In this document: positions 16,652 through 47,884 of the stretch, one piece after another
Layout of the letters: every line of letters begins with the position of its first letter
Position numbering within the stretch: position 1 is the stretch's first letter
NCBI GenBank assembly: GCA_032622095.1
Contig: CP136067.1
Coordinates: forward strand, 195,140,052 to 195,204,051
Source of the DNA: Siphonodentalium dalli
Taxonomy: Eukaryota > Mollusca > Scaphopoda > Gadilida > Siphonodentaliidae
Length of the DNA stretch: 64,000 bases
Direction of reading: 5' to 3'
Made by a program: the position numbers and the translations under genes
The notes under the pieces: generated by a model
Told to the model about the DNA's origin: nothing
Database searches by the model: none
What the model saw: the letters and a program-made list of their open reading frames with translations, nothing else

Positions 16652-16905
16652 CAAGCCTTGAAATAGGGTGTCTGTCATTTGCATAATGAGGTCCACAGAG
16701 GGTGAATTTAGTGATGCTATCCCGCATAGCGGGCCAGCATCTCCAAATTCACCCTCTGGGGACCTCATTCTGCTTACACCTCAGCAGAATGCGGTTCCCA
16801 GAGGGTGAAGTTGGTGATGCTAGCCCGCTATGCGGGGTAGCATCACTAAATTCACCCTCTAGGGACCCCATTCTGCAAATGACAGACACCCTATTTCAAG
16901 GCTTG
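16652..16905. mobile_element. Two-hairpin MITE, 8-bp TSD ATTATGAA
   Basis: 254-bp element with inverted ends CAAGCCTTGAAATAGGGTGT, made of two adjacent ~85-bp palindromes that share the arm AGAGGGTGAATTTAGTGATGC and a GCCCGCTATGCGGGG-type tip. A perfect 8-bp duplication ATTATGAA flanks it (16,644-16,651 and 16,906-16,913). 8-bp targets are typical of hAT-type transposases, but the end sequence is not a textbook hAT end. Confidence 0.93.
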
Positions 16906-16913
16906 ATTATGAA

Positions 16914-23216: not shown

Positions 23217-23465
23217 CAAGCCTTGAAATAGGGTGTCTGTCATTTGCAGAATCCCAGAGGGTGAATTTAGTGATGCTACCCCGCATAGTGGGCTAGCATC
23301 ACCAAATTCACCCTCTGGGGACCTCATTCTACTTACACCTCAACAGAAAGAGGTTCCCAGAGGGTGAATTTGGTGATGCAAGCCCGCTATGCGGGGGTAG
23401 CATCACTAAATTCACCCTCTGGGGACCTCATTCTGCAAATGACAGACACCCTATTTCAAAGCTTG
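23217..23465. mobile_element. Two-hairpin MITE, 8-bp TSD CAAAGAGA
   Basis: Same family as 16,652: inverted CAAGCCTTGAAATAGGGTGT ends (right end CAAGCTTTGAAATAGGG), two palindromes, and perfect 8-bp flanks CAAAGAGA at 23,209-23,216 and 23,466-23,473. Confidence 0.93.
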
Positions 23466-26068: not shown

Positions 26069-26184
26069 TTAATTCAAAAGGAGTCTTAATCAAGTTAATC
26101 TGGCCTGTGATTACTGAATAAAACCTGCACCAATACCAGAAATTATTGAAATACTAAGTTCCATTACATAATAAGGATTGTAAT

Positions 26185-26438
26185 CAAGCCTTGAAATAGT
26201 GTGTCTGTCATTTGCAGAATGAGGTCCCCAGAGGGTGAATTTAGTGATGCTACCCCGCATAGCAGGCTAGCATCACCAAATTCACCCTCTGGGGACCTCA
26301 TTCTGCTTACACTTCAGCAGAATGAGGTTCCCATAGGGTGAATTTGGTGATGCTAGCCCACTATGCGGGGTAGCATCACTAAATTCACCCTCTGGGGACC
26401 TCATTCTGCAAATGACAGACACAATATTTCAAGGCTTG
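26185..26438. mobile_element. Two-hairpin MITE, 8-bp TSD (A/G)TTGTAAT
   Basis: Third intact copy of the family at 16,652, with flanks ATTGTAAT (26,177-26,184) and GTTGTAAT (26,439-26,446), one mismatch. The right palindrome and ends are otherwise conserved. Confidence 0.92.
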
Positions 26439-26587
26439 GTTGTAATTCTGGAAATGAAAGTGTCAATGACACTGTAGCTCAACTTGGGTAGGGGAATAAT
26501 TTAATGGAGGAATAGGAAAGGTGCTAATTGAAATGTCTAAGTAAGACTAGATGTACATGTCAATATCAACATTCATGACAGGTTTCA

Positions 26588-27804
26588 CAAGAGATGGACT
26601 GTCGTCCGGTGCATACCCCCTCGTGGCATACCGCCTAGTGTGGGCATATCTATAACTTATGATGGCTATACTCAGACATATGGACCCAGAAATCAGCATT
26701 TTCATATAAACAAAGATGAATAACTATAGAACAAAAAACCAAAACAAACATTTGAATGTGCCATTAAATGTCCTCATAGTGGTGAACATCCATACAAAAT
26801 TTCATTGAGATCCGAGCATTACTGTTCAAGTTATGAGCTGAACAGACATCGGATGGATCAAACAGCCAACATTTCCAGATAAACAAAGATGAATTACTCT
26901 AGAATGGAAAAGCAGAACAGAACAATGGAACCCCCTATTGAATGTCCTCATAGCAGTGAACATCTATACCAAATTCCATTGAGATCCCAGCACAACAGTT
27001 GAAGTTACGACATGAACAGACACCAGACGGACCAAAATGCCAACATTTCCAGATGATCAAAGATAAATAACTCTAGAATGGAAAAGCGGAACAAAACGAT
27101 GGAACCCTCCTTTTCAGGTCATCATAGTAGTGAACATCCATACCAAATCCCATTGAGATCCCAGTACAACTGTAGAAGTTACGACATGAACAGACACCAG
27201 ACGAACCAAAAAGCCAACATTTCCAGATGAACAAAGATGTATAACTCTAGAATGGAAAATCCGAACAAAACGATGGAACCCTCTATTGAATGCCCTCATA
27301 GTAGTGAACAGCCATACAAAATTTCATTGAGATCCGAGCACTACTGTTCAGGTTATGACATGAACAGACACCAGATGGACCAAAAATCCAACATTTCGAG
27401 ATAAACAAAGATGAATAACTCTAGAATGGAAAATCCGAACAAAACGATGGAACCCTCTTTTTAATGTCCTCATAGTTGTGAACATCCACACCAAATTTGG
27501 TTGAGATCCCAGCACAACTGTTGAAGTTACGACATGAACAGACACCAGACGAACCAAAAAGCCACTATTTCCAGATAAACAAAGATGAATAACTCTAGAA
27601 TGGAAAATCCAAACAAAATGATGGAACCCTCTATTTAATGTCCTCATAATAGTGAACATCCATACCTAATTTCATTAAGATCCGAGCACTACTGTTCAAG
27701 TTATGACATGAACAGACATCGGACGGACGTACGGACTCACGCACGCACGGACGGACAGGTGCAAAACAGTATACCCCCCTTTTTTTTTTTAAAAGGGGGT
27801 ATAA
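26588..27804 (+). mobile_element. Nested satellite-bearing element, second family
   Basis: Comparison with element C at 32,786 gives the empty site: GGTTTCA joins TAATGATCGG there, while here 1,217 bp separate them without a target duplication. The 5' end has the short palindrome GGACTGTCGTCC, then GCATACCCCC. The core has about five ~174-bp monomers (GCCAACATTTCCAGAT, TAACTCTAGAATGGAAAA, ATTGAGATCC). The 3' end is a hairpin, TATACCCCCCTTTT ... AAAAGGGGGTATAA, that inverts the 5' subterminal motif. The plan matches its host, but the sequence is unrelated. Confidence 0.85.
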
Positions 27805-27859
27805 TAATGATCGGATCAGGGATGTGGTGATTATGGTGTGCCAAAGGATTTATTGATGC

Positions 27860-29885
27860 AAAGAGTAAATTCTAAAATGGCCACCGGCAGCCATGTTTTT
27901 TTCCGAATTACCCCAAAATGACCTGTTCCCATCTACAGCCTTTACAAATCTCATAATGATCTGTGCCAATGGATTTAGTCATGCAAAGAGTAAAATCCAA
28001 GATGGCTGCTGGCGGCCATGTTTTTTGGCTGAACGACCCCAAAATGACTCGTTTCCCATCTACATGTCATTGTTAACATCCATGACAAATTTCATGAAGT
28101 TCCGACCAAAGCTACGACCTGTAGCCCGCACCAAAGGATTTAGTCATGCAAAGAGTAAAATCCAATATGGTTGCTGGCGGACATGTTTTTTAGCCAAACG
28201 ACCCCAAGATCACTCGTTCCCATCTACATGTTAATATTAACATCCATGATAAATATCATGATGATCAGACGAACAGTACGACCTGTAGTCCGTGCCAATG
28301 GATTGAATTTTGAAATCCAAGATGGCCGCCAGCGGCCATGTTTTTTGGCCATATGACCTCAAAATGACTCGTTCCCATCTACATGTCAATATCAACATTC
28401 ATGACAAGTTTCATAAAGATCAGATCAAAGGTACGACCTGTAGCCCGCGCCAAATGATTTAGTCATGCAAAGAGTAAAATCCAAGATGGCTGCTGGCGGC
28501 CATGTTTTTTGGCCGAACGACCCCAAAATCACTCGTTCCGATCTACATGTCATTGTTAACATCCATGACAAATTTCACGAAGTTCTGACCGAAGCTACAA
28601 CCTGTAGCCCGCGCCAAAGAATTTAGTCATGCAAAGAGTAAAATCTAAGATGGCTGCTGGTGGCCATGTTTTTTGGTTGAACGACCCCAAAATCACTCGT
28701 TCCCATCTACATGTCAATATTAACATCCATGACAAATTTCATGATGATCAGACGAACAGCACGACCTGTAGCCCACGCCAATGGATTGAATTTAGAAATC
28801 CAAAATGGCCACCAGCGGCCATGTTTTTTGGCCAGATGACCCCAAAATGACTCGTTCCCATCTACATGTCAATATCAACATTCATGACAAATTTCATAAC
28901 GATCAGACCAAAGGTACGACCTGTAGCCTGCGCCAAAGGATTTAGTCATGCAAAGAGTAAAATCCAAGATGGCTGCTGGCGGCCATGTTTTTTGGCAGAA
29001 CGACCCCAAAATCACTCGTTCCCATCTACATGTCATTGTTAACATCTATGACAAATTTCATGAAGTTCTGACCAAAGCTACAACCTGTAGCCCGCGCCAA
29101 AGAATTTAGTCATGCAAAGAGTAAAATCTAAGATGGCTGCTGACGGCCATGTTTTTTGGCCAAATGACCCGTTCCCATCTACATGTCAATATTAACATCC
29201 ATGACAAATTTCATGTTGATCAGACGAACAGCACGACCTGTAGCCCGCGCCAATGGATTGCATTTTGAAATCCAAGATGGCCACCAGCGGCCATGTTTTT
29301 TGGCCAGATGACCCCAAAATGACTCGTTCCCATCTACATGTCAATGTCAACATTCATGACAAATTTCATAAAGATCCGATCAAAGGTATGACCTGTATCC
29401 CTCGCCAAAGGATTTAGTCATGCAAAGAGTAAAATCTAAGATGGCTGCTGACGGCCATGTTTTTTAGACGAATGACCCAAAAATCACTCGTTCCCATCTA
29501 CATGTCATTGTTAACATCCATGACAAATTTCATGAAGTTCTGACCAAAACTACGACCTGTAGCCCGCGCCAAAGGATTTAGTCATGCAAAGAGTAAAATC
29601 CAAGATGGCTGCCGACGGCCATGTTTTTTGGCCGAATGACCCCAAAATGACTCGTTCCCATTTACATGTCAATATTAACATCCATGACGATCAGACGAAC
29701 AGTACGACCTGTAGCCCGCGCCAATGGATTGAATTTTGAAATCCAAGATGGCCACCAGTGGCCATGTTTTTTGGCCGAATGACCCCAAAATGACTCGTTC
29801 CCATCTACATGTCAATGTCAACATTCATGACAAATTTCATAAAGATCAGACCAAAGGTACGACCTGTAGCCCGCGCCAAAGGAAA
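27860..29885 (+). repeat. ~160-bp satellite array in element B
   Basis: Two monomer types alternate irregularly. One has CAAGATGGCTGCTGGCGGCC and ends GGATTTAGTCATGCAAAGAG; the other has CAAGATGGCCACCAGCGGCC and ends TGGATTGAATTTTGAAATC. Both share GACTCGTTCCCATCTACATG and GGTACGACCTGTAGCC. Short open frames across monomer joins (60-113 codons) are not genes. Confidence 0.93.
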
Positions 29886-29958
29886 TTGTTGACGGACACA
29901 CAGACGACGGACGCCAAAACATGGCAATAGCTCAAACTTACAAAGTAAGTTGAGCTAA

Positions 29959-30108
29959 AAATCAATGGATGAAACCCGCTGTTTGTAAATACATGTACTC
30001 TTTCCCCCATGTTGGTTCATCAAGTTATCAACATACTGAAGATGATATAGAGCTTCAAGGGTGTACCGAAGGATTTATACATGCAAAGAGTAAAATCTAT
30101 TTTCACAC
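29959..30108. other. Unique flank with a satellite scrap
   Basis: The right edge (GGATTTATACATGCAAAGAG, then TAAAATC) is a broken piece of the ~160-bp monomer, followed at once by a TA-type MITE. Confidence 0.55.
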
Positions 30109-30110
30109 TA

Positions 30111-30453
30111 CCGCTATACTTAAAGTAATTGACCACCAATAACGTGGTGTCACCCCGTTAATATGGCGGTACTATACCACGGTATCCTCCAATACCGCGG
30201 TACTGATACCGCTTGTTAACGCGAACAAGTATGTGTGAGTAAATACCTCCCCTAAAAGAGTTCCATGAAAATCACCGCGGTATTCAACAAAATTAATGCG
30301 GTGCCCGCTAAAAGACCACGGTATCATTATCGCCCAATATCGTAACTCCACGCCATGACCGTCTCGATACCGCTACCGTTTATTACCGGTATCACTGCGG
30401 TCATGACCGGGGTATCACCCCGTTTTTCTGGTCAATTACTTTGAGAATAGCGG
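30111..30453. mobile_element. TA-flanked MITE, CCGCTATNCT ends
   Basis: 343-bp element with inverted ends CCGCTATACTTAAAGTAATT and CCGCTATTCTCAAAGTAATT, both continuing GACCA, and TA at 30,109-30,110 and 30,454-30,455. The inside is dense in ACCGCGGT-type palindromes. A related ACCGCGGTC-rich patch lies at ~38,130-38,235. Confidence 0.85.
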
Positions 30454-30455
30454 TA

Positions 30456-31497
30456 TGTCCCATTACACAATAAAGGCCATTACTCTGGATAAATCAATGG
30501 ACGAAACCCGCTGTTTGTAAATTCTCTTTCCTCCATGTTACTTAATTAACAAACCAAAGAATTAATATCTGGCTGTCGATGACCAAGATAGAGAGCTTCA
30601 AAGATGTTATTGACTCACAGACGGACAGAGCCCATTTATATACCCCCCCCCCTAAACTTTGTTTGCGGGCGATAACAAGACAGTCAATGACTGTGGGATT
30701 GCTCATCTGACTCTAAAGATTACACGAGTCAGTACTTGTCAAATTTACTTCAACATAAGTAGTTAGAACTATACACTTAGCTTAGAAATTAAAGTGTTCA
30801 CATTGACATATACATGCATACACATTCTTAATTCATTTAAATTGAGTGCAGAGTATTAAATCTGTAATGTCTTCCCCTCCTCAAATAACCAATCCAATTT
30901 GATCAAACCCGATACCGGTTTGAGATTCAGATGTTGACATTATGTGCACCATATGCGTACATGTTGGAAAACAAAAAATTGTATTACAATAACATACATC
31001 AGCAGATATTTTTAAATCTTAAAAGTGTATGTCTGTATGAACTGATTCTACAGGGAGTTCATACTCAAATTTAAATGTTACAACAGTAGGACAAACAGAC
31101 AATGCAAGGTTTCAAATAACCACACCCATCATGTAAGCTTTAAGAAACCTATAAAAAAAATATTTTCACTGCAATTTTTTCCTCATCAGAAGCCGGACCA
31201 ACCCCATAATATCTTGTTATAAAATAATATATATTGGCCATTGGGTAAATATTAAAACTAGGAGCCCCATTCTCTTGATCAATGGTCTATTATTTTATAT
31301 TAATTTTAGTTTGTGTAATCTGTTTTTGAAAAAAAATGACATCTCATTAAACAAATCTGCAACCCAACTCATGCGGGCATTTATTTGGATGCTCAATGTT
31401 CAATTGAGGAAAAACATTTGTGCCCCACTGTTATGAGTACATAAACAAATAAATCAAGACTTTGCAAATAAAACAAAGATATGTGGGTTAACCCTTC
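30456..31497. other. No gene; repeat-end fragment at 30,600-30,665
   Basis: A CAGACGGACAGAGCCC-type tail followed by a TATACCCCCCCC run resembles the 3' end of the nested element at 26,588. The rest shows nothing that can be supported. Confidence 0.5.
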
Positions 31498-31501
31498 CAT
31501 G

Positions 31502-31744
31502 ATTGCAGCTTCCTGAAATTTTGCGAAAAACCTGTGCCAATGCATTCTCTTATATATGCGAGTCTCCAACAGAAAGCCTCGGATATATAAGAGAACACAT
31601 TGGCCTAAGAATATTTCTTGACCTTGAAAGCCAGTGAATTCTCTTCTATATGTGAGGCTCCCTGTGGGAGACTTGCATGTATAAGAGAATGCATTGACAC
31701 AGGGTCTTTAATGCTGCATCAGCACAGCTCCGGTCACGAAAGGG
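31502..31744. mobile_element. TTAA-flanked MITE, CCCTTCCATGA family
   Basis: 243-bp element with ends CCCTTCCATGATTGCAGC and inverted CCCTTTCGTGACCGGAGC, TTAA at 31,498-31,501 and 31,745-31,748. It carries two CATTCTCTTATATATG-type hairpins like those in the unrelated ACCCAACA family. Confidence 0.85.
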
Positions 31745-31748
31745 TTAA

Positions 31749-32785
31749 TACTAATAATAAACTTGTAAACTGTCAAAGGTATAGATGTCAACACATTGGT
31801 TTAAACTGCAACCCACTATCTGCTGGGAAACTATGAATATTTTATAGAGATAACTAATTACTTTATAATAACAGACAGACAACTGTGCAGAGTAAGGACA
31901 GAACTAGTATCTCTGGTATTTTGTTGTTCTATCTACACATTGGCATGTCAAATAGCCACTGCAGTGTAGTCAAAAGAATACAGGGTAGGAAGTGGGAGGG
32001 ATGTGATGTGGTGTGTCTAAAAAGAAAGAGTTAAATGTTTTAAATCTAAATTATATATTCATTTTTGTTTAAATTTTTTTATTTTAATTGAGCAAGGGTT
32101 TCAATCTAAAAAAATTAGTTTTTTTAAAAGAGTATTGTCCCTGGCTCTGCCCCTATTTTACCCACTAACCCGATTTGAACAAATCTGAACCACAGTCACC
32201 CAAGGACCCTCCATACCAAATATAAGCTAATTAGGCCTGGTGATTCTTGAGAAGAAGTTATTTTAAGAATTACTATGGAGGAAAAAATTTATGGCCCTGG
32301 CTTCACAACTATTTGACTTGGTATCCTCATTTTAACATCTGAATGTAAGTCACCCAGGGAACATCCACACCAAATATGAACCCATTCGGTCTTATGGTTT
32401 GGGAGAAGAGGATGATTCTTGACAGACAGGTGGACGGACAGACGGAGAATAATGTCTACAGCTCCATGGTCCACCGAGACTGTCTCAGGTGAGCTAAACA
32501 GAAGAGCTGTTAACAAATGGTAGTCTTATCCATATCAAATTCTCTTTATTAGTCAAATAAGGATGCAGGCTGCTCTGTCAAAAAGCTGAAATTTGTTCAA
32601 TAAATTCATGAAGCAACTGAGCAAATATAAAATCTTATCCATCTAAAAATAAAGAATGGCAGTAATTTTTGCCTCTCAAAACTATTAATGTTTCCGATGA
32701 TAGTACAATTTAAATTTGCAATGAAAACAGTACTTGTTGTACAAGAATGTTAAGATTCATTTGTGAATCCAAATGGATACATAAT
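31749..32785. other. No gene; dispersed repeat fragments
   Basis: 32,160-32,500 contains two diverged copies of a CACCAAATATGAA-type segment (CACCCAAGGACCCTCCATAC and CACCCAGGGAACATCCACAC), then GACAGACAGGTGGACGGACA and TCTCAGGTGAGCTAA, a repeat tail also found near 19,400. No coding region is supported. Confidence 0.5.
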
Positions 32786-35130
32786 ATGAAAGTGTCAATG
32801 ACACTGTAGCTCAACTTAGTTAGGGGAATAATTTAATGGTCGACAGTAAATGGAGGAATAAGAAAAGTGCTAATTGAAATGTCCAAGTAAGACTAGATGT
32901 TCATGTCAATATCAACATTCATAACAGGTTTCATAATGATCGGATCAGGGATGTGGTGATTATGGTGTGACAAAGGATTTATTGATGCAAAGAGTAAATT
33001 CTAAAATGGCCACCGGCAGCCATGTTTTTTGTCCGAATTACCCCAAAATGACTTGTTCCCATCTACAGCCTTTACAAATCTCATAATGATCTGATCAAAG
33101 GTATGACCTGTAGCCTGTGCCAATGGATTTAGTCATGCAAAGAGTAAAATCCAAGATGGCTGCTGGCGGCCATGTTTTTCGGCTGAACGACCCCAAAATG
33201 ACTCGTTTCCCATCTACATGTCATTGTTAACATACATGACAAATTTCTTGAAGTTCCGACCAAAGCTACGACCTGTAGCCCGCACCAAAGGATTTATTCA
33301 TGCAAAGAGTAAAATCCAATATGGCTGCTGGCGGACATGTTTTTTAGCCAAACGACCCCAAAATTACTCGTTCCCATCTACATGTTAATATTAACATCCA
33401 TGATAAATATCATGATGATAAGACAAACAGTACGACCTGTAGCCCGTGCCAATGGATTGAATTTTGAAATCCAAGATGGCTGCCAGCGGCCATGTTTTTT
33501 TGGCCGTATGCCCCCAAAATGACTCCGTTCCCATATACATGTCAATATCAATATTCATGACAAATTTCATAAAGGTCAGACCAAAGGTACGACCTGTAAC
33601 CCGCGCCAAATGATTTAGTCATTGAAAGAGTAAAATCCAAGATGGCTGCTGGCGGCCATGTTTTTTGGCCGAACGACCCCAAAATCACTCGTTCCCATCT
33701 ACATGTCATTCTTAACATCCATGATAAATTTCATGATGATCAGACGAACAGCACGACCTGTAGCCCGCGCCAATGGATTGATTTTGAAATCCAAAATGGC
33801 CACCAGTGGCCATGTTTTTTGGCCGAATGACCCCAAAATGACTCGTTCCCATCTACATGTCAATGTCAACATTCATGACAAAATTAATAAAGATCAGACC
33901 TTAGGTACGACCTGTAGCCCGCGCCAAAGGATTTAGTCATGCAAAGAGTAAAATCCATGATGGCTGCTGGCGGCCATGTTTTTTGGACGAACAACCCCAA
34001 AATCACTCGTTCCCATCTACATGTCATTGCTAACATCCATGACAAATTTCATGAAGTTCTGATCAAAACTACGACCTGTAGCCTGCGCCAAAGGATTTAG
34101 TCATGCAAAGAGTAAAATCCAAGATGGCTGCCAGTGGCCATGTTTTTTTGGCCGTATGACCCCAAAATGACTCGTTCCCATATACATGTCAATATCAATA
34201 TTCACGACAAATTTCATAAAGGTCAGACCAAAGGTACGACCTGTAACCCGCGCCAAAGGATTTAGTCATGCAAAGAGTAAAATCCAAGATGGCTGCTGGT
34301 GGCCATGTTTTTTGGCCGAACGACCCCAAAATCACTCGTTCTCATCTACATGTCATTATTAACATCCATGACAAATTTCATGATGATCAGACGAACAGCA
34401 CGACCTGTAGCCCGCGCCAATGGATTGAATTTTGAAATCCAAAATGGCCACCAGCGGCCATGTTTTTTGGCCGAATGACCCCAAAATGACTCGTTCCCAT
34501 CTACATGTCAATGTCAACATTCATGACAAAATTCATAAAGATCAGACCGACCTGTAGCCCGCGCCAAAGGATTTAGTCATGCAAAGAGTAAAATCCATGA
34601 TGGCTGCTGACGGCCATGTTTTTTGGCCGAACAACCCCAAAATCACTCGTTCCCATCTACATGTCATTGTTAACATCCATGACAAATTTCATGAAGTTCC
34701 GATCAAAACTACGACCTGTAGCCTGCGCCAAATGATTTAGTCATGCAAAGAGTAAAATCCAAGATGGCTGCTGACGGCCATGTTTTTTGGCCGAACGACC
34801 CCAAAATGACTCGTTCCCATCTACATGTCAATATTAACATCCAAGACAAATTTCATGATGATCAAACAAACAGTACGACCTGTAGCCCGCGCCAATGGAT
34901 TGAATTTTGAAATCCAAGATGGTCACCAGCGGCCATGTTTTTTGGCCGAATGACCCCAAAATGACTCGTTCCCATCTACATGTCAATGTCAACATTCATG
35001 CAAAATTTCATAAAGATCAGACCAAAGGTACGACCTGTAGCCCGCGCCAAAGGAAATTGTTGACGGACACACGGACGACGGACGCCAAGCCATGGCAATA
35101 GCTCAAACTTACAAAAGTAAGTTGAGCTAA
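32786..35130 (+). mobile_element. Satellite-bearing element C (uninterrupted)
   Basis: Same ends as B: ATGAAAGTGTCAATGACACT at the start, and the hairpin AGCTCAAACTTACAAAAGTA-AGTTGAGCTAA at the end. It holds about 13 monomers (33,000-35,040). It keeps the site into which the nested element of B was inserted, and it diverges from B by scattered substitutions and monomer losses, so the two are separate old copies or an old duplication. Confidence 0.9.
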
Positions 35131-35774
35131 TAAGCACTTAACTACTTTACTTACAAAAATGCTCCTACATGTCTAGTTATAAAATGAGACAACTCTTCTG
35201 GTCTCTGAACGGATTCTCTGATTGGTTGACGCCTATCACCAATGCATCTGCTTGAGCATTCTGGTTAGTGTAGTTAAGTATCCTGAAAACAGAGAAAGGA
35301 ATCTTTGGAAGCCATATATATAAAACCACCACCTCTAGGCTATCAGGACTAGTGCTGAAATGGTTGACAACAGTCTACTGTCGACAACCGGTTAACCGCT
35401 ATGGAATACACACGATGCAGACAACAACAAATAAAGTACATGTATAACGGTCCCTAATCAGCGCTAGACTGTCAGCAGTATATTTTAAACATGAGTACTT
35501 TATAAATTTTATCACATACTTTATTACTTAAAGGTGTATAGTACTGTTCAAATTAAGTGTATCCAGTCAGAATCGGGTGTGAGATCAAATGTCTTCCATG
35601 AATTGAAAGATACATTGTCTGGCTTTGGCGGCTTAATATTAAAGATGCATGACATCTGAGACGTCTGGGATACACGTGCACTGAGTAGTCAACAAAGATC
35701 AATGCAATTGTTTTCAATGCAGTATGGCCTGGTCATTTGACAATTGTCAGACAAACTAGACGGTAACATACTAC
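35131..35774. other. Flank with a possible hAT end at ~35,350
   Basis: TAGTGCTGAAATGGTTGACA at ~35,350 resembles hAT termini and lies 425 bp before the transposase relic. No matching right end with an 8-bp duplication was found. Confidence 0.35.
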
Positions 35775-37979
35775 ATGTATATTATGGATATTTCATTCTC
35801 CTTCGAAGAAAATAAGAAAATCGCCGAATGTAAATTATTTCATACAAGGTTTACTTACTCGGGGTCTACTTCAAACATGAAGCAGCATGTTCTGAAGAAA
35901 CATGCAGTGGGGTCACCCTCAACAGATCAAAATGTTGCTAGCAGTATAAGATTCCTCGAGCACCAAGAAAATCCAGACCAAAACTGAACTTTCAGAAGCC
36001 AAAATCTAAATAGATTGTTCAATGGTGCGCGATGGACATTAGACCCATAAGCATTGTAAATGGAGAAGGTTTTAAGAATATGGTCAGCCTGTTGTAATTA
36101 GTTTTCTAATTGGGATTTTCCCCAGGCGCAATTCGTGCTACTTTCGCTTTCGTAAATATTCTCTTTCTCTTCCAAAACCACCCACTTTATTGGGCCAAAT
36201 TAACGTAATTACCTATACTCTCATATAAACTCCTTTACATTACTTATATTCATTGTTAATTCAATTGCTATACGGTAGGTTATGTGTTTCAATGTATAAA
36301 TTCAATTTATTCAGTGTTTGTACCGCTAGGCAGCCGTTTTCCTTGTTTACTGTATGCACATGGATGCAACGAGGTACGCTGTCAGGCTGGTGACCGCTAC
36401 TATGTATCAATGGAAACAAACCACTCTCTGGCGCATAACCCGTACAGCCTTTGTCGACACTTTCTACTTTGGCAGAACTAATTAATCTTACCTGACGCTT
36501 ACATTTACGGCATTTTAATCTTACCGGGACTTCGACTTTGGAATTTTTGGCACAGTGTTTACGCTATAGTGGAACTTAGTGGTTCGTTTTACTTACTTGG
36601 GAGTTAATCGAAAGTCCTCCCTTTGCTAGCTGACGTCTATTGGGATTCCCAACTTCCAAATTTAACCCATTTTACATGTAGGTCAGATTCTGGACTCTCC
36701 TTGTTAACATAGCTTTGGCTCCTGTACTAATATGCATGGGAATACAACCACTGAATCGGCGCATTATCGACAGACTATACAGGTATGCTTGCATGTTGAA
36801 ATACAATGATATTCTTTAAATAAAGAATTATTTTATACGTTTATTCTTATTACCCCAGATTACCCAACATATAATCCTGTGAAGATTGTAGGAATTAACC
36901 ACTCTACCACATTATGTCCACATATACATTTCGGGTTTGAAAACTAAACCGGACCCTACAACATTACAATCATATGACCATCCGGAATTATCTGAAAGTG
37001 GTCTATGACGGGTCAAAGAAGGCCACAACAAATTGTTGGACAATTTGCGCTACAGAGACTCCGATAGTTACCTGTATGTTACTGTGACAGTGCACTATCA
37101 GGATCCAGATTGGACTTTTCAGAATTTTGTGTTGTACATGTGGTAGGTTAGTGACATACACACGTCAAGACAATTTAGCCAATGCACTGCAGAACATCCT
37201 ACAGGAATTCGGAATTTCCGACAAGATTTTGGCAATTACAACAGATAATGGGACCAATGTTGTCGCTTGTGTCCATGAAATGGGCCTCACTCATATCCGC
37301 TGTAGGGCATACAATACAATTTGTTAATGCCAGTCTAAACATGACAACAATTCATCGAGCGAGGGGAGGCTGAAGGCGATTGGTGACACATTTCAAGAAA
37401 TCTAATGTTGCCAGCACAGAACTGAAAACCGGTCAGAAAGAAATTCATTTGCTGGAGAAATGCATGATGGAAGATGTATCCACCCGGTGGAATTCAACCT
37501 ATGCTACATATATGTTCAACAGGTTGCTGGAACAATGTCTACCAGTTTTAGCAGTAATTCTAGATCCAATGTCCGATGTCACTTCACAATCTGACGGCTG
37601 CATCCTAGAACTCAGTGATGAATTCTGGCGCACTATGGAGGCTGTCACACTTGTATTGAAGCCCTTTCAAATGGCTACAACTGTGTTGTGCTTGGAGGAA
37701 TTTTCAACACTAAGTATGGTGTACCCAGTCATATGTGCTCTCTTGAAAATCCATTTGATTCCCAAAGAAGATGATCCAAAGGAAGCAAAGGATCTAAAAA
37801 AAACTGTTTCAGATGATTTGAAAAAAAGGTGTTCCATTGATGATTTCTCTAAGAATCCAATCACAGTTGCCATAGCATTGAACCCACAGTACAAGGGTTT
37901 ACCATTTCTCAACGAAGTTCAAAAGGTTACTATTTTTGATGGAATCATCCCGCTGTTGAGAGAGCAGCCCCAGTGCTGA
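35775..37979 (+). pseudogene. hAT transposase relic (ZBED type)
   Basis: A decayed transposase in several frames. 35,775-35,985 encodes a BED zinc finger, AECKLFHTRFTYSGSTSNMK then QHVLKKH; the second metal-binding Cys is Phe. About 36,030-36,085 reads DIRPISIVNGEGFKNMV, the segment that follows BED in this family. Roughly 36,086-36,850 interrupts it with an unrelated insert or intron-like stretch. 37,046-37,140 reads DSYLYVTVTVHYQDPDW, and 37,127-37,326 has ITTDNGTNVV, the second catalytic-Asp region of hAT. The longest intact piece, 37,380-37,979, has STRWNSTY and VLKPFQMATTVLC. The hATC dimerisation domain expected at the C-terminus is missing. Broken frames and the lost Cys make it inactive. 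Confidence 0.9.
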
Positions 37980-38129
37980 CAGAGTGACAAGCAGTGCGTG
38001 TTAATCCAGTGATGCTTGTGATTTTAGCAGATGAGACACTGACGCGAGTCAGATGGCCACCCCTGCCACTAATGCCCTGCGAAAACACTACTGTGGTGTA
38101 CGTTGGTAATGGACTAGTTTACAGCGGTG

Positions 38130-38235
38130 GACTTCCAACACGACCGCGGTCAGATACCACGGGTCACCGCAATTTGTCGCGGTGCTACCGCTTGACCGCG
38201 GTCTAGTGGCGGTATGACCGCGGTCATTACCGGCC
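38130..38235. repeat. ACCGCGGTC-rich palindromic patch
   Basis: Repeated ACCGCGGTC / GGTATGACCGCGGTCATTAC motifs related to the MITE at 30,111. No complete ends are seen. Confidence 0.5.
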
Positions 38236-38795
38236 CATAACCTCATAAAGGGGTCGATTAATTAGAGCATAGCTGTACATTTCCTATTTTAGGAAAATCC
38301 GGGTTCTGTAACAGAATAAAGTTAAGAACTATTCCTCAAGTAATGAAAGCATTATCAACAAAAAACAATAACAACAAATAACATTTCTCAAATGTTTCCT
38401 AGACATAGATAACTTACTCATCTACAACTCTGCAAAGATGAATTCATTCTTGTCAACGGTGTTCTAAAAAAACAGTACACACAGAACAGATTTGTGAAAA
38501 ATTTTAAACTCTGTTAATTTGGGGCCTGGAATGATTTTTTCACTGCAGAGTTGTAGATCAGTATGTTATTTATAGAAAACAGCCGACATATGCCCGGTGT
38601 TTGTGTTTAGTGCGTATATTTGGGATATGTTTGTCCGGCTATTTGGTAATGCTTCCATTACTTGTCATACTTTAGCATTTATATTGTAATACCAATAAAT
38701 TTGATAAACTTTATTTTCGGGACATCATGTCCAGTAACTGTGACTGAACTCAAGAGTTTTCTTTTAATTTATGTTGATTTACATCAAAGATTTAA

Positions 38796-39172
38796 CCCTT
38801 TCAGTGCCAGGGGCCGATCCCCATTGGCCATAATTTACGGTCTGTAAAATCGGCCCTAAAAAAATATAAAAAATTGCTATAGCGAATTTAAAAACAAACT
38901 GGATAAAACCTTAGGGGCATGTTATAACTATCACCAAGTATTCATAGTAATAATTTTGATGCCCATGAAAAACGTGAGATTCCCTGGTACTAAACCTACA
39001 AAATAAGTCTGTTAAAGAATATAAGAAAAAATTATTTAAATTGTAAAACATAATAACAAATGATGAAAAATTGTTAGGCCAATGCATTCTCTTATATATG
39101 CGAGGCGACCTATGGTCGACTCGCATATGGGTATATGGGTTGATACAAAAATCGGACCTGGCACTCAAAGGG
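38796..39172. mobile_element. TTAA-flanked MITE, CCCTTTCAGTGCCAGG family, copy 1
   Basis: Ends CCCTTTCAGTGCCAGG and inverted CCCTTTGAGTGCCAGG, TTAA at 38,792-38,795 and 39,173-39,176, in piggyBac style. It carries a damaged form of the CATTCTCTTATATATGCGAG hairpin (~39,077-39,128), with the right arm cut short. Confidence 0.88.
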
Positions 39173-39941
39173 TTAAGGCGTCAGTGCTGACTGCTACACT
39201 AGCTAATTCGTGTGATGCAATTGATCAGACTCAGTGATAACTTGTCACTGTGGCACGTGTAATACTACGCGTATAGTACTAGTAGTGAGGCAACAAAATG
39301 GTTTCAAGAATATACGAAATGTCTGCTAACATCAGGAAAGTTGAGAAACGATCGATGTTTGATCTGAAGTAAGCACCAATAGAGCGGAACATTTTCATGG
39401 TAAAAAAAATGGTTCACGTTGCACTTCAGTTTTCGAAATCAAATTGTGGTGGGTTCACCAGTAGTATTGAATACTATTGACATGTAGCTTTTGAAAGCAA
39501 AGTAACCACTGACAATCATGTCTTGTTTTGCGTTTGAGTGTTCTGAAACGGAAAGTTGGATACCGGTACTCAAAACTGCCACACCGACCATTTTATACCT
39601 ATGATTATCCTAGGGTATGTCTATGGGCATAGAATTAAGAAAGGGGAAATTCAGCAGGGGTCCGACTAATCGACTAACTAGTAGTAATAGTAGTAATAGT
39701 AGTAGTAGTAGTGTCTAGTGACTCAGTCAATGAGTAGTACAGTAGTACTATCAGTATAATATATATTATATTATATAGCTGAATGGTATGATTTCAGCTG
39801 AAATTTCACATTTCCCAGATGGGCAGACCTGATAGTGATAGTGATATTTTTTGTGGAAATTGGAAATGTTATGGAAGCTTGTCACCACAGGTTTTGGTAG
39901 TTTTTTTTACCTTTTTCATGAAAATGTTATCACCATTTTTA

Positions 39942-41744
39942 ATGAAAGTGTCAATGACACTGTAGCTCAACTTGGAAAGGGAATAATTTAATGTATTACA
40001 GTCAATGGAGCGATTAGGAATGTGGAAAGTTGAATGTATAATACTAGTTTATAGACATGAAGAGAAAAGTAAAATCCAAGATGGCTGCTGGCGGCCATGT
40101 TTTCGGCCGAATGACCCCAAAATGATTGTATCCCATCTACATGTCATCGTTAACATCCATGACAAATTTTATGACGATCAGACTAAAGGTACGACCTGTA
40201 GCCTATGCTAAAGAATTTAGTCATACAAAGAGTAAAATCCAAGATGGCTGCTGGCGGCCATGTTTTTTGGCCGAATGACACCAAAATGACTCGTTCCCAT
40301 CTACATGTCATTATTAACATCTATGACAAATTTTATGACGATCAGACTAAAGGTACGACCTGTAGCCCATGCTAAAGAATTTAGTCATACAAAGAGTAAA
40401 ATCCAATATTAACAACCATGACAAATTTCATGATGATCAGACGAACAGTACGACCTGTGGCCCATGCTAATGGATTAAATTTTGAAATCCAAGATGGCCA
40501 CTGGCGGCCATGTTTTTTGTCCGAATGACCCCAAAATGACTCGTTCCCATTTACATTCCAATTTCAACAGCCATGACAAATTTTATGATGATCAGACTAA
40601 ATGTACGACCTGTAGCCTGTGCTAAAGGATTTAGTCATACAAAGAGTAAAATCAAAGATGGCTGCTGGCGGCCATGTTTTTCTGCCGAATGACCCCAAAA
40701 TTACTCGCTCCCATTTACATTCCAATTTCAACAGCCATGACAAATTTTATGATGATCAGACTAAAGGTACGACCTGTAGCCCGTGCTAAAGGATTTAGTC
40801 ATACAAAGAGTAAAATCAAAGATGGCTGCTGGCGGCCATGTTTTTCTGCCGAATGACCCCAAAATGACTCGTTCCCATCTACATGTCATTATTAACATTC
40901 ACGACAAATTTTATGATGATCAGACTAAAGGTACAACCTGTAGCCCGTGCTAAAGGATTTAGTCATACAAAGAGTAAAATCCAAGATGGCTGCTGACGAC
41001 CATGTTTTTTGGCCGAATGACCCCAAAATTACTCGTTCCCATCTACATGTCATTGTTAACATCCATGACAAATTTTATGATGATCAGACGAACAGTACGA
41101 CCTGTGGCCCGTGCTAATGGATTAAATTTTGAAATCCAAGATGGCCACTGGCGGCCATGTTTATTGGCCGAATGACCCCAAAATTACTCGTTCCCATCTA
41201 CATTCCAATTTCAACAGCCATGACAAATTTTATAATGATCAGACTAAAGGTACGGCCTGTAGCCCGTGCTAAAGGATTTAGTCATACAAAGAGTAAAATC
41301 CAAGATGGCTGCTGGCGGCCATGTTTTTTGGCCGATTGACCCCAAAATGACTCGTTCCCATCTACATGTCATTATTAACATTCTTGACAAATTTTATGAT
41401 GATCAGACTAAAAGTAGGACCTGTAGCCCGTGCTAAAGGATTTAGTCATACAAAGAGTAAAATCCAAGATGGCTGCTGGCGGCCATGTTTTTTGGCCGAA
41501 TGACCCCAAAATGACTCGTTCCCATTTACATTCCAATTTCAACAGCCATGACAAATTTTATGATGATCAGACTAAATGTACGACCTGTAGCCTGTGCTAA
41601 AGGATTTAGTCATACAAAGAGTAAAATCAAAGATGGCTGCTGGCGGCCATGTTTTTCTGCCGAATGACCCCAAAATTACTCGCTCCCATTTACATTCCAA
41701 TTTCAACAGCCATGACAAATTTTATGATGATCAGACTAAAGGTA
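39942..41744 (+). mobile_element. Satellite-bearing element D1, truncated by the duplication junction
   Basis: Starts with ATGAAAGTGTCAATGACACT-GTAGCTCAACTT, then about 10 monomers of the variant with GATTTAGTCATACAAAGAG and GACAAATTTTATGATGATC. It stops inside a monomer at 41,744, so it lacks the 3' hairpin. Confidence 0.9.
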
Positions 41745-41827
41745 TTATTTTCGGGACATCATGTCCAGTAACTGACTGAACTCAAGAGTTTTCTTTTAAT
41801 TTATGTTGATTTACATCAAAGATTTAA

Positions 41828-42204
41828 CCCTTTCAGTGCCAGGGGCCGATCCCCATTGGCCATAATTTACAGTCTGTAAAATCGACCCTAAAAAAATATA
41901 AAAAATTGCTATAGCGAATTTAAAAACAAACTGGATAAAACCTTAGGGGCATGTTATAACTATCACCAAGTATTCATAGTAATAATTTTGATGCCCATGA
42001 AAAACGTGAGATTCCCTGGTACTAAACCTACAAAATAAGTCTGTTAAAGAATATAAGAAAAAATTATTTAAATTGTAAAACATAATAACAAATGATGAAA
42101 AATTGTTAGGCCAATGCATTCTCTTATATATGCGAGGCGACCTATGGTCGACTCGCATATGGGTATATGGGTTGATACAAAAATCGGACCTGGCACTCAA
42201 AGGG
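41828..42204. mobile_element. TTAA-flanked MITE, CCCTTTCAGTGCCAGG family, copy 2
   Basis: Copy of the element at 38,796 carried by the 3-kb duplication; TTAA at 41,824-41,827 and 42,205-42,208. It differs by a couple of bases. Confidence 0.88.
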
Positions 42205-42976
42205 TTAAGGCGTCAGTGCTGACTGCTACACTAGCTAATTCGTGTGATGCAATTGATCAGACTCAGTGATAACTTGTCACTGTGGCACGTGTAATACTAC
42301 GCGTATAGTACTAGTAGTGAGGCAACAAAATGGTTTCAAGAATATACGAAATGTCTGCTAACATCAGGAAAGTTGAGAAACGATCGATGTTTGATCTGAA
42401 GTAAGCACCAATAGAGCGGAACATTTTCATGGTAAAAAAAATGGTTCACGTTGCACTTCAGTTTTCGAAATCAAATTGTGGTGGGTTCACCAGTAGTATT
42501 GAATACTATTGACATGTAGCTTTTGAAAGCAAAGTAACCACTGACAATCATGTCTTGTTTTGCGTTTGAGTGTTCTGAAACGGAAAGTTGGATACCGGTA
42601 CTCAAAACTGCCACACCGACCATTTTATACCTATGATTATCCTAGGGTATGTCTATGGGCATAGAATTAAGAAAGGGGAAATTCAGCAGGGGTCCGACTA
42701 ATCGACTAACTAGTAGTAATAGTAGTAATAGTAGTAGTAGTAGTAGTGTCTAGTGACTCAGTCAATGAGTAGTACAGTAGTACTATCAGTATAATATATA
42801 TTATATTATATAGCTGAATGGTATGATTTCAGCTGAAATTTCACATTTCCCAGATGGGCAGACCTGATAGTGATAGTGATATTTTTTGTGGAAATTGGAA
42901 ATGTTATGGAAGCTTGTCACCACAGGTTTTGGTAGTTTTTTTTACCTTTTTCATGAAAATGTTATCACCATTTTTA

Positions 42977-45353
42977 ATGAAAGTGTCAATGACACTGTAG
43001 CTCAACTTGGAAAGGGAATAATTTAATGTATTACAGTCAATGGAGCGATTAGGAATGTGGAAAGTTGAATGTATAATACTAGTTTATAGACATGAAGAGA
43101 AAAGTAAAATCCAAGATGGCTGCTGGCGGCCATGTTTTCGGCCGAATGACCCCAAAATGATTGTATCCCATCTACATGTCATCGTTAACATCCATGACAA
43201 ATTTTATGACGATCAGACTAAAGGTACGACCTGTAGCCTATGCTAAAGAATTTAGTCATACAAAGAGTAAAATCCAAGATGGCTGCTGGCGGCCATGTTT
43301 TTTGGCCGAATGACACCAAAATGACTCGTTCCCATCTACATGTCATTATTAACATCTATGACAAATTTTATGACGATCAGACTAAAGGTACGACCTGTAG
43401 CCCATGCTAAAGAATTTAGTCATACAAAGAGTAAAATCCAATATTAACAACCATGACAAATTTCATGATGATCAGACGAACAGTACGACCTGTGGCCCAT
43501 GCTAATGGATTAAATTTTGAAATCCAAGATGGCCACTGGCGGCCATGTTTTTTGTCCGAATGACCCCAAAATGACTCGTTCCCATTTACATTCCAATTTC
43601 AACAGCCATGACAAATTTTATGATGATCAGACTAAAGGTACGACCTGTAGCCCGTGCTAAAGGATTTAGTCATACAAAGAGTAAAATCAAAGATGGCTGC
43701 TGGCGGCCATGTTTTTCTGCCGAATGACCCCAAAATGACTCGTTCCCATCTACATGTCATTATTAACATTCACGACAAATTTTATGATGATCAGACTAAA
43801 GGTACAACCTGTAGCCCGTGCTAAAGGATTTAGTCATACAAAGAGTAAAATCCAAGATGGCTGCTGACGACCATGTTTTTTGGCCGAATGACCCCAAAAT
43901 TACTCGTTCCCATCTACATGTCATTGTTAACATCCATGACAAATTTTATGATGATCAGACGAACAGTACGACCTGTGGCCCGTGCTAATGGATTAAATTT
44001 TGAAATCCAAGATGGCCACTGGCGGCCATGTTTATAGGCCGAATGACCCCAAAATTACTCGTTCCCATCTACATTCCAATTTCAACAGCCATGACAAATT
44101 TTATGATGATCAGACTAAAGGTACGGCCTGTAGCCCGTGCTAAAGGATTTAGTCATACAAAGAGTAAAATCCAAGATGGCTGCTGGCGGCCATGTTTTTT
44201 GGCCGAATGACCCCAAAATGACTCGTTCCCATCTACATTCCAATTTCAACAGCCATGACAAATTTTATGATGATCAGACTAAAAGTAGGACCTGTAGCCC
44301 GTGCTAAAGGATTTAGTCATACAAAGAGTAAAATCCAAGATGGCTGCTGGCGGCCATGTTTTTTGGCCGAATGACCCCAAAATTACTCGTTCCCATCTAC
44401 ATGTCAATATTAACATCCATGACAAATTTTATGATGATCAGACTAAAGGTACGACCTGTAGCCCGTGCTAAAGAATTTAGTCATACAAAGAGTAAAATCC
44501 AAGAAGGCTGCTGGCCGCCATGTTTTTTGGCCGAATGACCCCAAAATTACTCGTTCCCATCTACATGTCAATATTAACATCCATGACAAATTTCATGATG
44601 ATCAGACGAACAGTACGACCTGTGGCCCGTGCTAATGGATTGAATTTTGAAATCCAAGATGGCCACTGGCGGCCATGTTTTTTGTCCGAATGACCCCAAA
44701 ATGACTCGTTCCCATCTACATTCCAATTTCAACAGCCATGACAAATTTTATGATGATCGGACTAAAGGTACGACCTGTAGCCCGTGCTAAAGGATTTAGT
44801 CATACAAAGAGTGAAATCAAAGATGCCTGCTGGCGGCCATGTTTTTTGACCGAATGACCCCAAAATGACTCGTTCCCATCTACATGTCATTATTAACATT
44901 CTTGACAAATTTTATGATGATCAGACTAAAAGTACGACCTGTAGCCCGTGCTAAAGAATTTAGTCATACAAAGATTAAAATCCAAGATGGCTGCTGGCGG
45001 CCATGTTTTTGGGCCGAATGACCCCAAAATTACTCGTTCCCATCTACATGTCAATATTAACATCCATGACAAATTTCATGACGATCAGACAAACAGTACG
45101 CCCTGTAGCCCGTGCTAATGGATTGAATTTTGAAATGCAAGATGGCCACTGGCGGCCATGTTTTTTTACCGAATGACCCCAAAATTAATCATTCTGGTCT
45201 AAATGTTGATGTCAACAGCTATGACAAATTTCATAATGATCCGACCAAAGGTACGACCTGTAGACTGCATTGTTGACGCCTTACGTACACACGTACACAC
45301 GGACGACAAAGCCATGGCAATAGCTCAAACTTTACAAATTAAAGTTGAGCTAA
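42977..45353 (+). mobile_element. Satellite-bearing element D2 (complete)
   Basis: Same 5' terminus as D1, about 13 monomers, then the tail CACACGGACGACAAAGCCAT and the 3' hairpin AGCTCAAACTTTACAAATTA-AAGTTGAGCTAA. It is the intact counterpart of D1. Confidence 0.9.
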
Positions 45354-45630
45354 TAATAAGTACAGGTGTATAAGTAGCCACGAAAGTAGCAATGTGCCCA
45401 ATGTACATGTAGACCTAAAATACCATATTCAGCGCAAGTTCCGGTTTGGTAAAGGTGGATTATCATAAGAACATCTAGAGCATAATGTACTCGGGTACGA
45501 AAATAAAAGTGTGTTCAAATTGGATTGTTCCAGATATCTCATCAATAAAACAATTGCCTTGGTCACACATTTAAGCAGAACTAAATGAAAGGGTGTCTAG
45601 TATTTTAATTATTTATCAAAATGAAACAAA
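45354..45630. other. Short spacer between satellite elements
   Basis: Non-repetitive AT-rich DNA between D2 and E; no gene. Confidence 0.5.
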
Positions 45631-47884
45631 ATGAAAGTGTCAATGACACTATAGCTCAATGGAGTGATTAGGAATGTGGAAAGTTGAATGTCTATTACTA
45701 GTTTATGGACATGAAGAGAAAAGTAAAATCCAAGATGGCTGCTGGCGGCCATGTTTTCGGCCGAATGACCCCAAAAAGAATCGTTCCCATCTACATATCA
45801 ATATTAACATCCATGACATATTTGATGATGATCAGACTAAAGGTACGACCTGTAGCCCGTGCTAAAGAATTTAGTCATACAAAGAGTAAAATCCAAGATG
45901 GCTGCTGGCGGCCATGTTTTTGGGCCGAATGACCCCAAAATTAATCGTTCCCATCTACATGTCAATATTAACATCCATGACAAATTTCATGATGATCAGC
46001 CGAACAGTACGACATGTGGCCCGTGCTAATGGATTGAATTTTGAAATCCAAGATGGCCACTGGCGGCCATTATTATTTGTCCGAATGACCCCAAAATGAC
46101 TCGTTCCCATCTACATTCCAATTTCAACAGCCATCACAAATTTTATGATGATCAGACTAAAGGTACGACCTGTAGCCCGTGCTAAAGGATTTAGTCATAC
46201 AAAGAGTAAAATCAAAGATGGCTGCTGGCGGCCATGTTTTTTGACCGAACGACCCCAAAATGACTCGTTCCCATCTACATGTTATTATCAACATTCATGA
46301 CATATTTTATGATGATCAGACTAAAGGTACGACCTGTAGCCCGTGCTAAAGGATTTAGTCATACAAAGAGTAAAATCCAAGATGGCTGCTGGCGGCCATG
46401 TTTTTGGGCCAAATGACCCCAAAAAGAATTGTTCCCATCTACATGTCAATATTAACATCCATGAAAATTTGATGATGATCAGTCTAAAGGTACGACCTGT
46501 AGCCCGTGCTAAAGAATTTAGTCATACAAAGAGTAAAATCCAAGATGGCTGCCGGCCGCCATGTTTTTTGGCCGAATGACCCCAAAATTACTCGTTCCCA
46601 TCTACATGTCAATATTAACATCCATGACAAATTTCATGATGATCAGACGAACAGTACGACCTGTGGCCCGTGCTAATGGTTTGAATTTTGAAATCCAAGA
46701 TGGCGGCAATGTTTTTTGTCCAAATGACCCCAAAATGACTTGTTCCCATCTACATTCCAATTTCAACAGCCATGACAAATTTTATGATGATCGGACTAAA
46801 GGTACAACCAGTAGCCCGTGCTAAAGGATTTAGTCATACAAAGAGTAAAATTAAAGATGCCTGCTGGTGGCCATGTTTTTTTGACTGAACGACCCCAAAA
46901 TGACTCGTTCCCATCTACATGTTATTATCAACATTCATGATAAATTTTATGATGATCAGACTAAAGGTACGACCTGTAGCCCGTGCTAAAGGATTTGGTC
47001 ATACAAAGAGTAAAATCCAAGATGGCTGCTGGCGGCCATGTTTTTGGGCCAAATGACCCCAAAATTACTCGTTCCCATCTACATATCAATATTAACATCC
47101 ATGACAAATTTCATGATGATCAGACGAACAGTACGACCTGTGGCCCGTGCTAATGGATTGAATTTTGAAATCCAAGATGGCCACTGGCAGCCATGTTTTT
47201 TGTCCAAATGACCCCAAAATGACTCGTTCCCATCTACATTCCAATTTCAACAGCCACGACAAATTTTATGATGATCGGACTAAAGGTACGACCTGTAGCC
47301 CGTGCTAAAGGATTTAGTCATACAAAGAGTGAAATCAAAGATGCCTGCTGGCGGCCATGTTTTTTGGCCGAATGACCACAAAATGACTCGTTCCCATCTA
47401 CATGTCATTATTAACATTCTTGACAAATTTTATGATGATCAGACTAAAAGTACGACCTGTAGCCCGTGCTAAAGAATTTAGTCATACAAAGAGTAAAATC
47501 CAAGATGGCTGCTGGCGGCCATGTTTTTGGGCCAAATGACCCCAAAATTACTCGTTCCCATCTACATGTCAATCTTAACATCCATGACAAATTTCATGAC
47601 GATCAGACAAATAGTACGCCCTGTAGCCCGTGCTAATGGATTGAATTTTGAAATGCAAGATGGCCACTGGCGGCCATGTTTTTTTACCGAATGACCCCAA
47701 AATGAATCATTCTGGTCTAAATGTTGATGTCAACAGCTACATGTATGACAAATTTCATAATGATCCGACCAAAGGTACGACCTGTAGACTGCATTGTTCA
47801 CGCCTTACGTACACACGCACACACGGACGATGGACGACAAAGCCATGGCAATAGCTCAAACTTTACAAAGTAAAGTTGAGCTAA
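45631..47884 (+). mobile_element. Satellite-bearing element E
   Basis: 5' terminus ATGAAAGTGTCAATGACACT, then ATAGCTCAATGGAGTGATTA: relative to D, ~35 bp of the leader is deleted, removing most of the subterminal repeat. About 13 monomers follow, then the 3' hairpin AGCTCAAACTTTACAAAGTA-AAGTTGAGCTAA. Monomer starts measured at 45,731, 45,894, 46,049, 46,213 and 46,378 give spacings of 163, 155, 164 and 165 bp. Confidence 0.9.

Follow-up and report, generated by a model that had tools for sequence, protein, structure and literature searches.

A probable satellite-bearing HINE family in the scaphopod Siphonodentalium dalli and its broken coding relative

Helentrons are distinguished from Helitron2 elements by an endonuclease (Thomas et al. 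2014, PMC4067079). The pearl element of bivalves has been recast as a non-autonomous Helentron, and in Crassostrea gigas 10 coding Helentrons could not be related to the Cg_HINEs (Vojvoda Zeljko et al. 2020, PMC7492417). In the Helitron Helraiser, the 5′ end is required, the 3′ hairpin serves as the terminator, circular forms arise, and flanking DNA is carried along when the 3′ end is bypassed (PMC4778049). Statements about these papers, and about the Fusarium study PMC5148889, refer to the portions of their texts used for comparison. Here, we analyzed a window of 64,000 nucleotides of Siphonodentalium dalli (GenBank assembly GCA_032622095.1, contig CP136067.1, positions 195,140,052 to 195,204,051 of the forward strand), in which a repeated element occurs as copies A, B, C, D1, D2, and E. 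With high confidence, we assign these copies to a satellite-bearing family of non-autonomous Helentrons (HINEs) that has a broken coding relative with the same ends and array elsewhere in the genome.

Ends, insertion sites, and satellite arrays of the family

The 20-base word ATGAAAGTGTCAATGACACT was found exactly at six sites in the window, beginning at 26454, 32786, 39942, 42977, and 45631 on the plus strand and lying at 18301-18320 on the minus strand. It was continued by GTAGCTCAACTT in all window copies except the one at 45631 (copy E). The other end, AAGTTGAGCTAA, was present at four sites, closing at 29958, 35130, 45353, and 47884. The original prediction had described B, C, D2, and E as starting with the first word, E alone without the continuation, and as closing in a hairpin with the second, and all of these words were located where they were expected. 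Its orientation of the element was reversed relative to the Helentron convention (PMC4067079), since the end it called 5′ is the 3′ end of the element. In the Helentron sense, which is used from here on, copies B, C, D1, D2, and E lie on the minus strand and copy A on the plus strand.

Both ends are exact in copy B (26454-29958, flanks TTTT and T, 5′ end at the 29958 side) and copy C (32786-35130, flanks TTAT and A), and both are present in copy D2 (42977-45353, flanks TTAT and T). Copy E (45631-47884) has the variant 3′ subterminal word CCATTGAGCTATAG. Copies D1 (39942-41744) and A (17011-18320) keep one end only, as had been predicted, and in the Helentron convention this is the 3′ end; A also retains part of the array, and no 5′ end was found beside it. 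A tandem duplication (38711-41744 and 41745-44770, 95.6% identical over 3,047 aligned positions) holds both D1 and D2, and D1 lacks its other end because the break between the duplication units falls where its array stops. Therefore, the window represents five insertion events, not six.

The 3′ end module of B (26454-26485, minus strand) consists of the 3′ subterminal inverted repeat (subTIR) AAGTTGAGCTAC, the palindrome AGTGTCATTGACACT, and TTCAT, so that the element terminates in TTTCAT, and identical modules lie on the same strand at 32786-32817 (C), 39942-39973 (D1), and 42977-43008 (D2). The palindrome is predicted by DNA folding to form a 6-bp stem with an energy of -3.8 kcal/mol. At the opposite terminus, B carries the hairpin TAGCTCAACTT..AAGTTTGAGCTA (29926-29958, minus strand) with one extra T in the inner arm, and the corresponding hairpins, also on the minus strand, lie at 35097-35130 in C, 45319-45353 in D2, and 47850-47884 in E. 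The 5′ end thus reads TAGCTCAACTT(TAC TTT GTA)AAGTTTGAGCTATTGCCATGG, followed by a GTCC-type microsatellite (judged by eye) and the satellite array. The two subTIRs, TAGCTCAACTT at the 5′ end and AAGTTGAGCTA at the 3′ end, form an 11-bp pair inverted relative to each other, in agreement with the earlier claim that the subterminal word of one end recurs inverted within the hairpin of the other. The Rfam models gave no match in the window at gathering scores.

The genome of 2.23 Gb in 9 contigs was searched for exact arms and words; counts are genome-wide, and positions were taken from the first 100 places listed per search. The 32-base 3′ end occurred 11,170 times, with about 7e-10 copies expected by chance from base composition, and the 5′ hairpin occurred 12,758 times, while the reversed-pattern controls of both gave 0. 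A 5′ hairpin lay within 6 kb in the expected direction and on the same strand for 58 of the 87 listed 3′ ends (C1 below 25.81 Mb), on the same strand but the other side for 8, and on the opposite strand for none. Random placement of the ends in 500 trials produced 0.9 pairs on average and never more than 4. End-to-end distances in the 58 pairs ranged from 648 to 5,991 bases; element length is thus variable, whereas order and orientation are constant. The original prediction had stated that it would fall if the two ends were never found at a fixed distance and orientation from each other; the orientation proved to be fixed, but the distance did not. Three wider end spacings on C1 (11.7, 15.7, and 19.8 kb) occur at about the chance rate by our estimate, and no Rep match was listed there.

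Junctions were compared in 21 copies, comprising 17 of the 58 pairs picked by hand and window copies B, C, D2, and E. The left flank was TTWT in 19 copies, with T at position -4 in all 21, at -3 in 20, and at -1 in all 21, and the base following TTTCAT was T in 20 copies and A in copy C, which gives a target of the form TTWT|T. Two of the copies (L034/L035 and L044/L045) share near-identical flanks (57 of 60 bases), leaving at most 20 independent sites. An empty site was available for a 1,595-bp HINE copy inside a coding Helentron of another family (b2, on C2), whose relative b (on C1) lacks the insertion. After removal of the HINE copy, the flanks of b2 aligned to b across the junction CATTAT|ATTAG without a gap and without a target duplication. 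The flanks and the empty site together show the T-rich target without target duplication that characterizes Helentrons and HINEs. A miniature inverted-repeat transposable element mobilized by a cut-and-paste transposon would also be short, noncoding, and present in many copies, but the usual terminal inverted repeats at both ends are lacking and the empty site has no target duplication, and we attach next to no probability to this explanation.

The joined flanks of all 21 copies were also compared with the window and the fetched loci, and those of 5 matched another sequence across the junction. For D2, the match with window positions 54767-54852 was 94% identical over 86 bases without a gap. 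The joined flanks of the two same-site copies were 90-91% identical to their match over 135-136 bases, with gaps at 1 to 3 positions, and one of the remaining matches was 86% identical over 106 bases with 1 gap, the other being weak (72%). The sequence matched by the two same-site copies is a satellite monomer, and therefore both sit inside other satellite arrays. These copies (C1:3008512-3010510 and C1:17524859-17526713) have different lengths and occupy the same monomer position; either one target was used twice or a duplication took place. A genome search for an empty paralogue of copy C returned only its own site.

In copy B, the 164-bp satellite array, with a 483-bp higher-order unit, spans 27965-29883 (minus strand; Tandem Repeats Finder and monomer comparison). 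The arrays of C (33074-35054), D2 (43103-45263), and E (45722-47787) lie on the same strand. The array stands between a microsatellite-bearing left module and a right module, as in the Cg_HINE type. Monomers were cut with a fixed anchor, and 57 of 69 intervals in five elements (120 to 200 bases) were kept. The spacing in D2, E, and the coding locus i described below was mainly 155, 164, and 164 bases, so the array is built mainly of a three-monomer unit of 483 bp instead of the two alternating monomer types proposed earlier. The first three monomers of D2 and E had position-matched similarities of 0.98 each, the first monomer of locus i was most similar to the first of D2 (0.95), and the monomers of B and C had their best mutual matches near the 3′ ends (B_13/C_13, 0.98). 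The 483-bp unit is also repeated within single copies. Therefore, element and array are passed on together, with later changes in array length, and the position-matched monomers of D2 and E, like the kinship of the first monomers of i and D2, bear out the prediction that the elements were mobilized with the array inside.

A 34-base stretch of the monomer occurred 26,482 times in the genome. Among the 26 listed matches on C1 below 5.7 Mb, 22 lay no more than 4 kb from an exact same-strand HINE end, and for 16 this held for both ends. The other 74 listed matches belong to a single array of at least 26 kb (C1:5713534-5739695, spacings mostly 483, 164, and 319), inside which no exact HINE end was listed. 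This long array, and the 4 of 26 sampled matches without an end nearby, would suit a satellite that spread independently, in which case the shared ends would be no more than conserved array edges and locus i a chance satellite insertion beside a Helentron. However, such a satellite would not account for fixed ends with a palindrome and a target, it is contradicted by the exact empty site, and both ends surround one coding locus with matching flanks. We consider it extremely improbable.

Coding relatives and neighboring repeats

A genome search with the Pfam profile Helitron_like_N gave at least 151 matches (150 of 457 candidates scored), and a Rep query from family a gave at least 80. Flanks were read at nine loci that represent eight families (a to h, with locus i belonging to the family of f), and only f and i had a HINE 3′ end behind the frame in the stretches read. 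The original prediction had proposed to look for a partner encoding Rep-helicase with the same ends, and such a locus was found as a broken copy of 18.3 kb at C3:62736050-62754343 (locus i), which combines both HINE ends, the satellite, Rep-helicase, and an endonuclease.

The 5′ end of locus i is exact, begins at C3:62736050, is preceded by TTTT, and has the satellite behind it; together, the 5′ end and satellite extend over about 1.7 kb with 82% identity to copy B. The Rep-helicase matches lie at 62749258-62752894, accompanied by an endonuclease domain (PF03372, 1.8e-7), and the frames are broken by one frameshift and one stop. The 3′ end starts 213 bases past the last frame, has one subTIR mismatch, and closes at 62754343, where TATT follows. 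Its last 102-107 bases are 91-92% identical to the HINEs L052 and L054 and to the copy in b2.

The sibling locus f on C5 has a frame of 1,484 residues containing part of Helitron_like_N (3.7e-24), PIF1 (5e-23), and an endonuclease match (4.3e-7). An exact HINE 3′ end starts 240 bases past this frame, and 431 bp of satellite lie upstream. This copy is broken as well, the stretches upstream of the long frame being behind stops or in another frame. Four loci at least 86% identical to f were listed, compared with some 12,000 HINE ends. Further copies of the f/i family lie at C4:234099302-234102147 and C2:76764895-76766925. A partner with Rep, helicase, and endonuclease and the family's ends is thus represented by i with both ends and by f with the 3′ end. 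From the count of 11,170, we estimate a probability of about 6e-4 that the exact end word would fall by chance, in the same orientation, into the 250 bp that follow a given frame, which argues further against the self-spreading satellite.

Loci f and i are collinear in pieces of 75-97% identity covering the satellite, the frame, and the 3′ end, and reach 92-93% over the 3′ coding part. The 3′ module of f is 81% identical to those of B, C, and L046, a HINE set different from that matched by i, and therefore the siblings carry modules of two HINE subfamilies. This pattern points to exchange between HINEs and their parent, as far as can be inferred from sequence comparison. Alternatively, locus i could be a composite, in which an unrelated Helentron inserted into a HINE or captured HINE ends, and would then not be the parent. 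Composite Helitrons formed by self-insertion have been proposed for Fusarium (PMC5148889), the 3′ modules of f and i differ despite their similar 3′ coding parts, and the Helentrons b, c, and e have a HINE 3′ end upstream of the frame. However, the collinear order of satellite, frame, and 3′ end in f and i makes this arrangement older than the split between them, and the sequence behind the frame of i matches one HINE subfamily for about 75 bases beyond the 32-base end. The composite origin is accordingly an unlikely account of the locus.

The coding loci also bear on the type of element that drives the family. The asymmetric inverted repeats and the hairpin at each end would fit a Helitron2, which has Rep-helicase and no endonuclease, and the insertion site of Fusarium elements lies between TNAT and T (PMC5148889). 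However, f and i, the only coding relatives found with these ends, both have an Exo_endo_phos endonuclease after the helicase. A canonical Helitron would be expected to show 5′ TC, 3′ CTRR, and an A|T target, and the family instead has the ends TAGCTC..TTTCAT and the target TTWT|T. Either driver is very improbable in our judgment. Consequently, of the Helitron2/Helentron plan recognized in the original prediction, the Helentron part stands and the Helitron2 part does not.

Several observations weigh against the assignment to a Helentron family with a coding relative of the same ends. Two of the five junction-spanning matches have small gaps and one reaches only 72%. Exact partners within 6 kb in the expected direction were missing for 29 of the 87 listed ends, which truncation or mutation could cause, and the 4 of 26 monomer matches mentioned above had no exact end within 4 kb. 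Locus i is broken, and its DNA was read on either side of a 6.5-kb middle (62746301-62752799). The 5′ end of f was not found in the upstream stretch read, where the satellite amounts to only 431 bp, and loci a, b, c, d, e, g, and h did not have both family ends around the frame in the stretches read, which extended downstream for about 17 kb in b and c, 6 to 8 kb in a, d, e, and g, and 2.7 kb in h. Finally, rolling-circle transposition of the family is a prediction from sequence features.

With this in mind, a mechanism can be proposed for the Helentron family by analogy with Helraiser. Rep would nick at the 5′ end, TTWT|TAGCTC, after which one strand, including the array, would be copied or peeled off until the 3′ palindrome signals the end and copying stops. 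A circle carrying the array would be inserted at a T-rich site. The HINEs would be deletion or recombination derivatives of the coding element, with the array copied along and its length also altered by local exchange, and at one locus an element may have expanded to a long ordinary satellite array or arisen from such an array.

Helentron b had been considered as the parent on account of a second tandem array that it shares with copy B. This 174-bp array (26587-27805 in the window, minus strand, Tandem Repeats Finder) is unrelated to the 164-bp satellite and is 91% identical to an array downstream of the b frame (b positions 11793-13001; L003 with L004). Helentron b was rejected as the parent, as the array seems to be an independent repeat with its own edges. 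The edge sequence is CCCC(T)nAAAAGGGGGTATACTG.

HINE 3′ ends were found upstream of, and in the same orientation as, the frames of b (L003, L009, and L011), c (L015 and L016), and e (L026); in b and e, no more than about 60 bases separate them from the likely start codon. These ends were also considered as an internal terminator of the parent, and this was rejected, the preceding sequence in b being 78-84% identical to the endonuclease tail of f and i. We read these ends as probable remains of older elements; a promoter function or repeated insertion before the start codons of b and e is possible. A second copy of c has a diverged word resembling the 5′ end downstream of its frame, and family b has a Helitron-like 3′ end, CTAG|T, in the three copies compared.

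Helentron b contains OTU, DUF6570, Rep, and PIF1 domains. Loci of this family include C1:214417503, C2:2766078, and C3:70877906, and 16 listed matches at 58% to the query had open frames of at least 2,056 residues. A tandem array of 1,734-bp units begins at the CTAG end of b (within C1:214429101-214439100) and is identical at that lag in most 200-base windows, and Helentron c is followed downstream by a 1,737-bp array (within C8:82454400-82464399). In the window itself, a foldback repeat about 250 to 275 bases long (GCAGAATGAGGTCCCC..) occurs in three copies at 16642-16915, 23217-23465, and 26174-26449, one directly adjoining HINE copy B and one adjoining copy A. Further tandem arrays of the window lie at 1736-2264 (44-bp units), 22729-22847 (24-bp units), and 59130-59798 (about 111/309-bp units).

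The extra base of the 5′ hairpin

The search for the 5′ hairpin fixed the outer arms only, so that any inner stem was accepted. Among the first 100 places listed, the first inner pair was A-T in 32, T-A in 64, G-C in 3, and G-T in 1, and the second was C-G in 32 and A-T in 65, with 2 unpaired and 1 too short. The pairs of the 5′ stem covary; because the copies are related, the counts do not represent separate events. Among copies with exact arms, 12,758 had the extra T in the outer stem's inner arm and 39 lacked it. In contrast, the 3′ subTIR, which is able to pair with the same outer arm, occurred 11,170 times without an extra base and 3 times with one. A second family, TTAGCTCACCTGAG..GGTGGAGCTA, had one extra G at a similar place in 5,929 copies versus 4 without it (exact arms).

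By DNA folding, the predicted energy of the hairpin was -9.6 kcal/mol as found and -12.5 kcal/mol without the extra base, and pairing of the 5′ arm was predicted at -11.9 kcal/mol with the 3′ subTIR versus -9.0 kcal/mol with its own inner arm. The extra base could have been inherited from one founder per family, although the different letters in the two families weaken this explanation. As a tentative and rather doubtful alternative modeled on these predictions, the extra base may be a selected working part, whose weaker local hairpin would let the 5′ end switch to pairing with the distant and perfectly matching 3′ subTIR once the single strand is complete, providing a proof-reading of the ends that would apply across Helentron families; alongside this, long satellite arrays would be seeded by the coding Helentron as their carrier. 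The term "bulge" was absent from the Helentron, HINE, and Helitron2 literature searched for it. Fixed in two families and about 18,700 exact copies, the single-base asymmetry of the 5′ hairpin offers a structural rule that can be tested for Helentron end recognition.

Comparison with described Helentrons, HINEs, and Helitron2 elements

The window family fits the HINE definition and the Cg_HINE plan part by part and is an already known kind of element. It also resembles pearl and BIV160 of bivalves, as these are described, in plan and monomer size. Six strings from the ends and the monomer had no occurrence in the literature searched, and a search of titles and abstract starts for a coding Helentron tied to satellites showed no such tie among the entries listed.

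Compared with HINE/DINE-1 elements and Helentrons (PMC4067079), the family shares subTIRs, a palindromic 5′ side, a 3′ stem-loop, and a T-T target, as well as a Rep-helicase-endonuclease partner of which the HINEs would be deletion derivatives. Unlike in the mite HINE families of the same study, where the 3′ subTIR ends 38-60 nt from the 3′ end, this distance is about 20 nt here, and unlike in the Helentrons described there, the coding element contains about 1.7 kb of satellite array. The Helitron2/FoHeli elements of Fusarium (PMC5148889) similarly have asymmetric inverted repeats, a hairpin at each end in some groups, and TNAT/T insertion close to TTWT|T, but Helitron2 lacks the endonuclease, and no satellite array is mentioned for FoHeli in the portions compared.

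The closest match is with the Cg_HINEs (PMC7492417), which have a subTIR of 11-12 bp with a complementary inverted repeat on the 5′ side, a GTCC-type microsatellite, central satellite monomers of 140-180 bp, a 3′ subTIR followed by a palindrome, and an oligo-T target without target duplication, two of the elements having a second array as well. None of the end and monomer strings searched for the window family was present in the text of that paper. The families differ in that one-mismatch subTIRs predominate in most Cg_HINEs, whereas the exact 3′ word occurred 11,170 times here, and in that the 5′ inverted repeat has a fixed extra base here. Satellite-carrying HINEs are thus known in oysters, none being tied to a coding Helentron in the parts of PMC7492417 compared, whereas in this one genome the tie is made through a coding relative with the same ends and array. 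An array inside a coding element therefore makes the spread of satellites by rolling-circle transposons directly testable.

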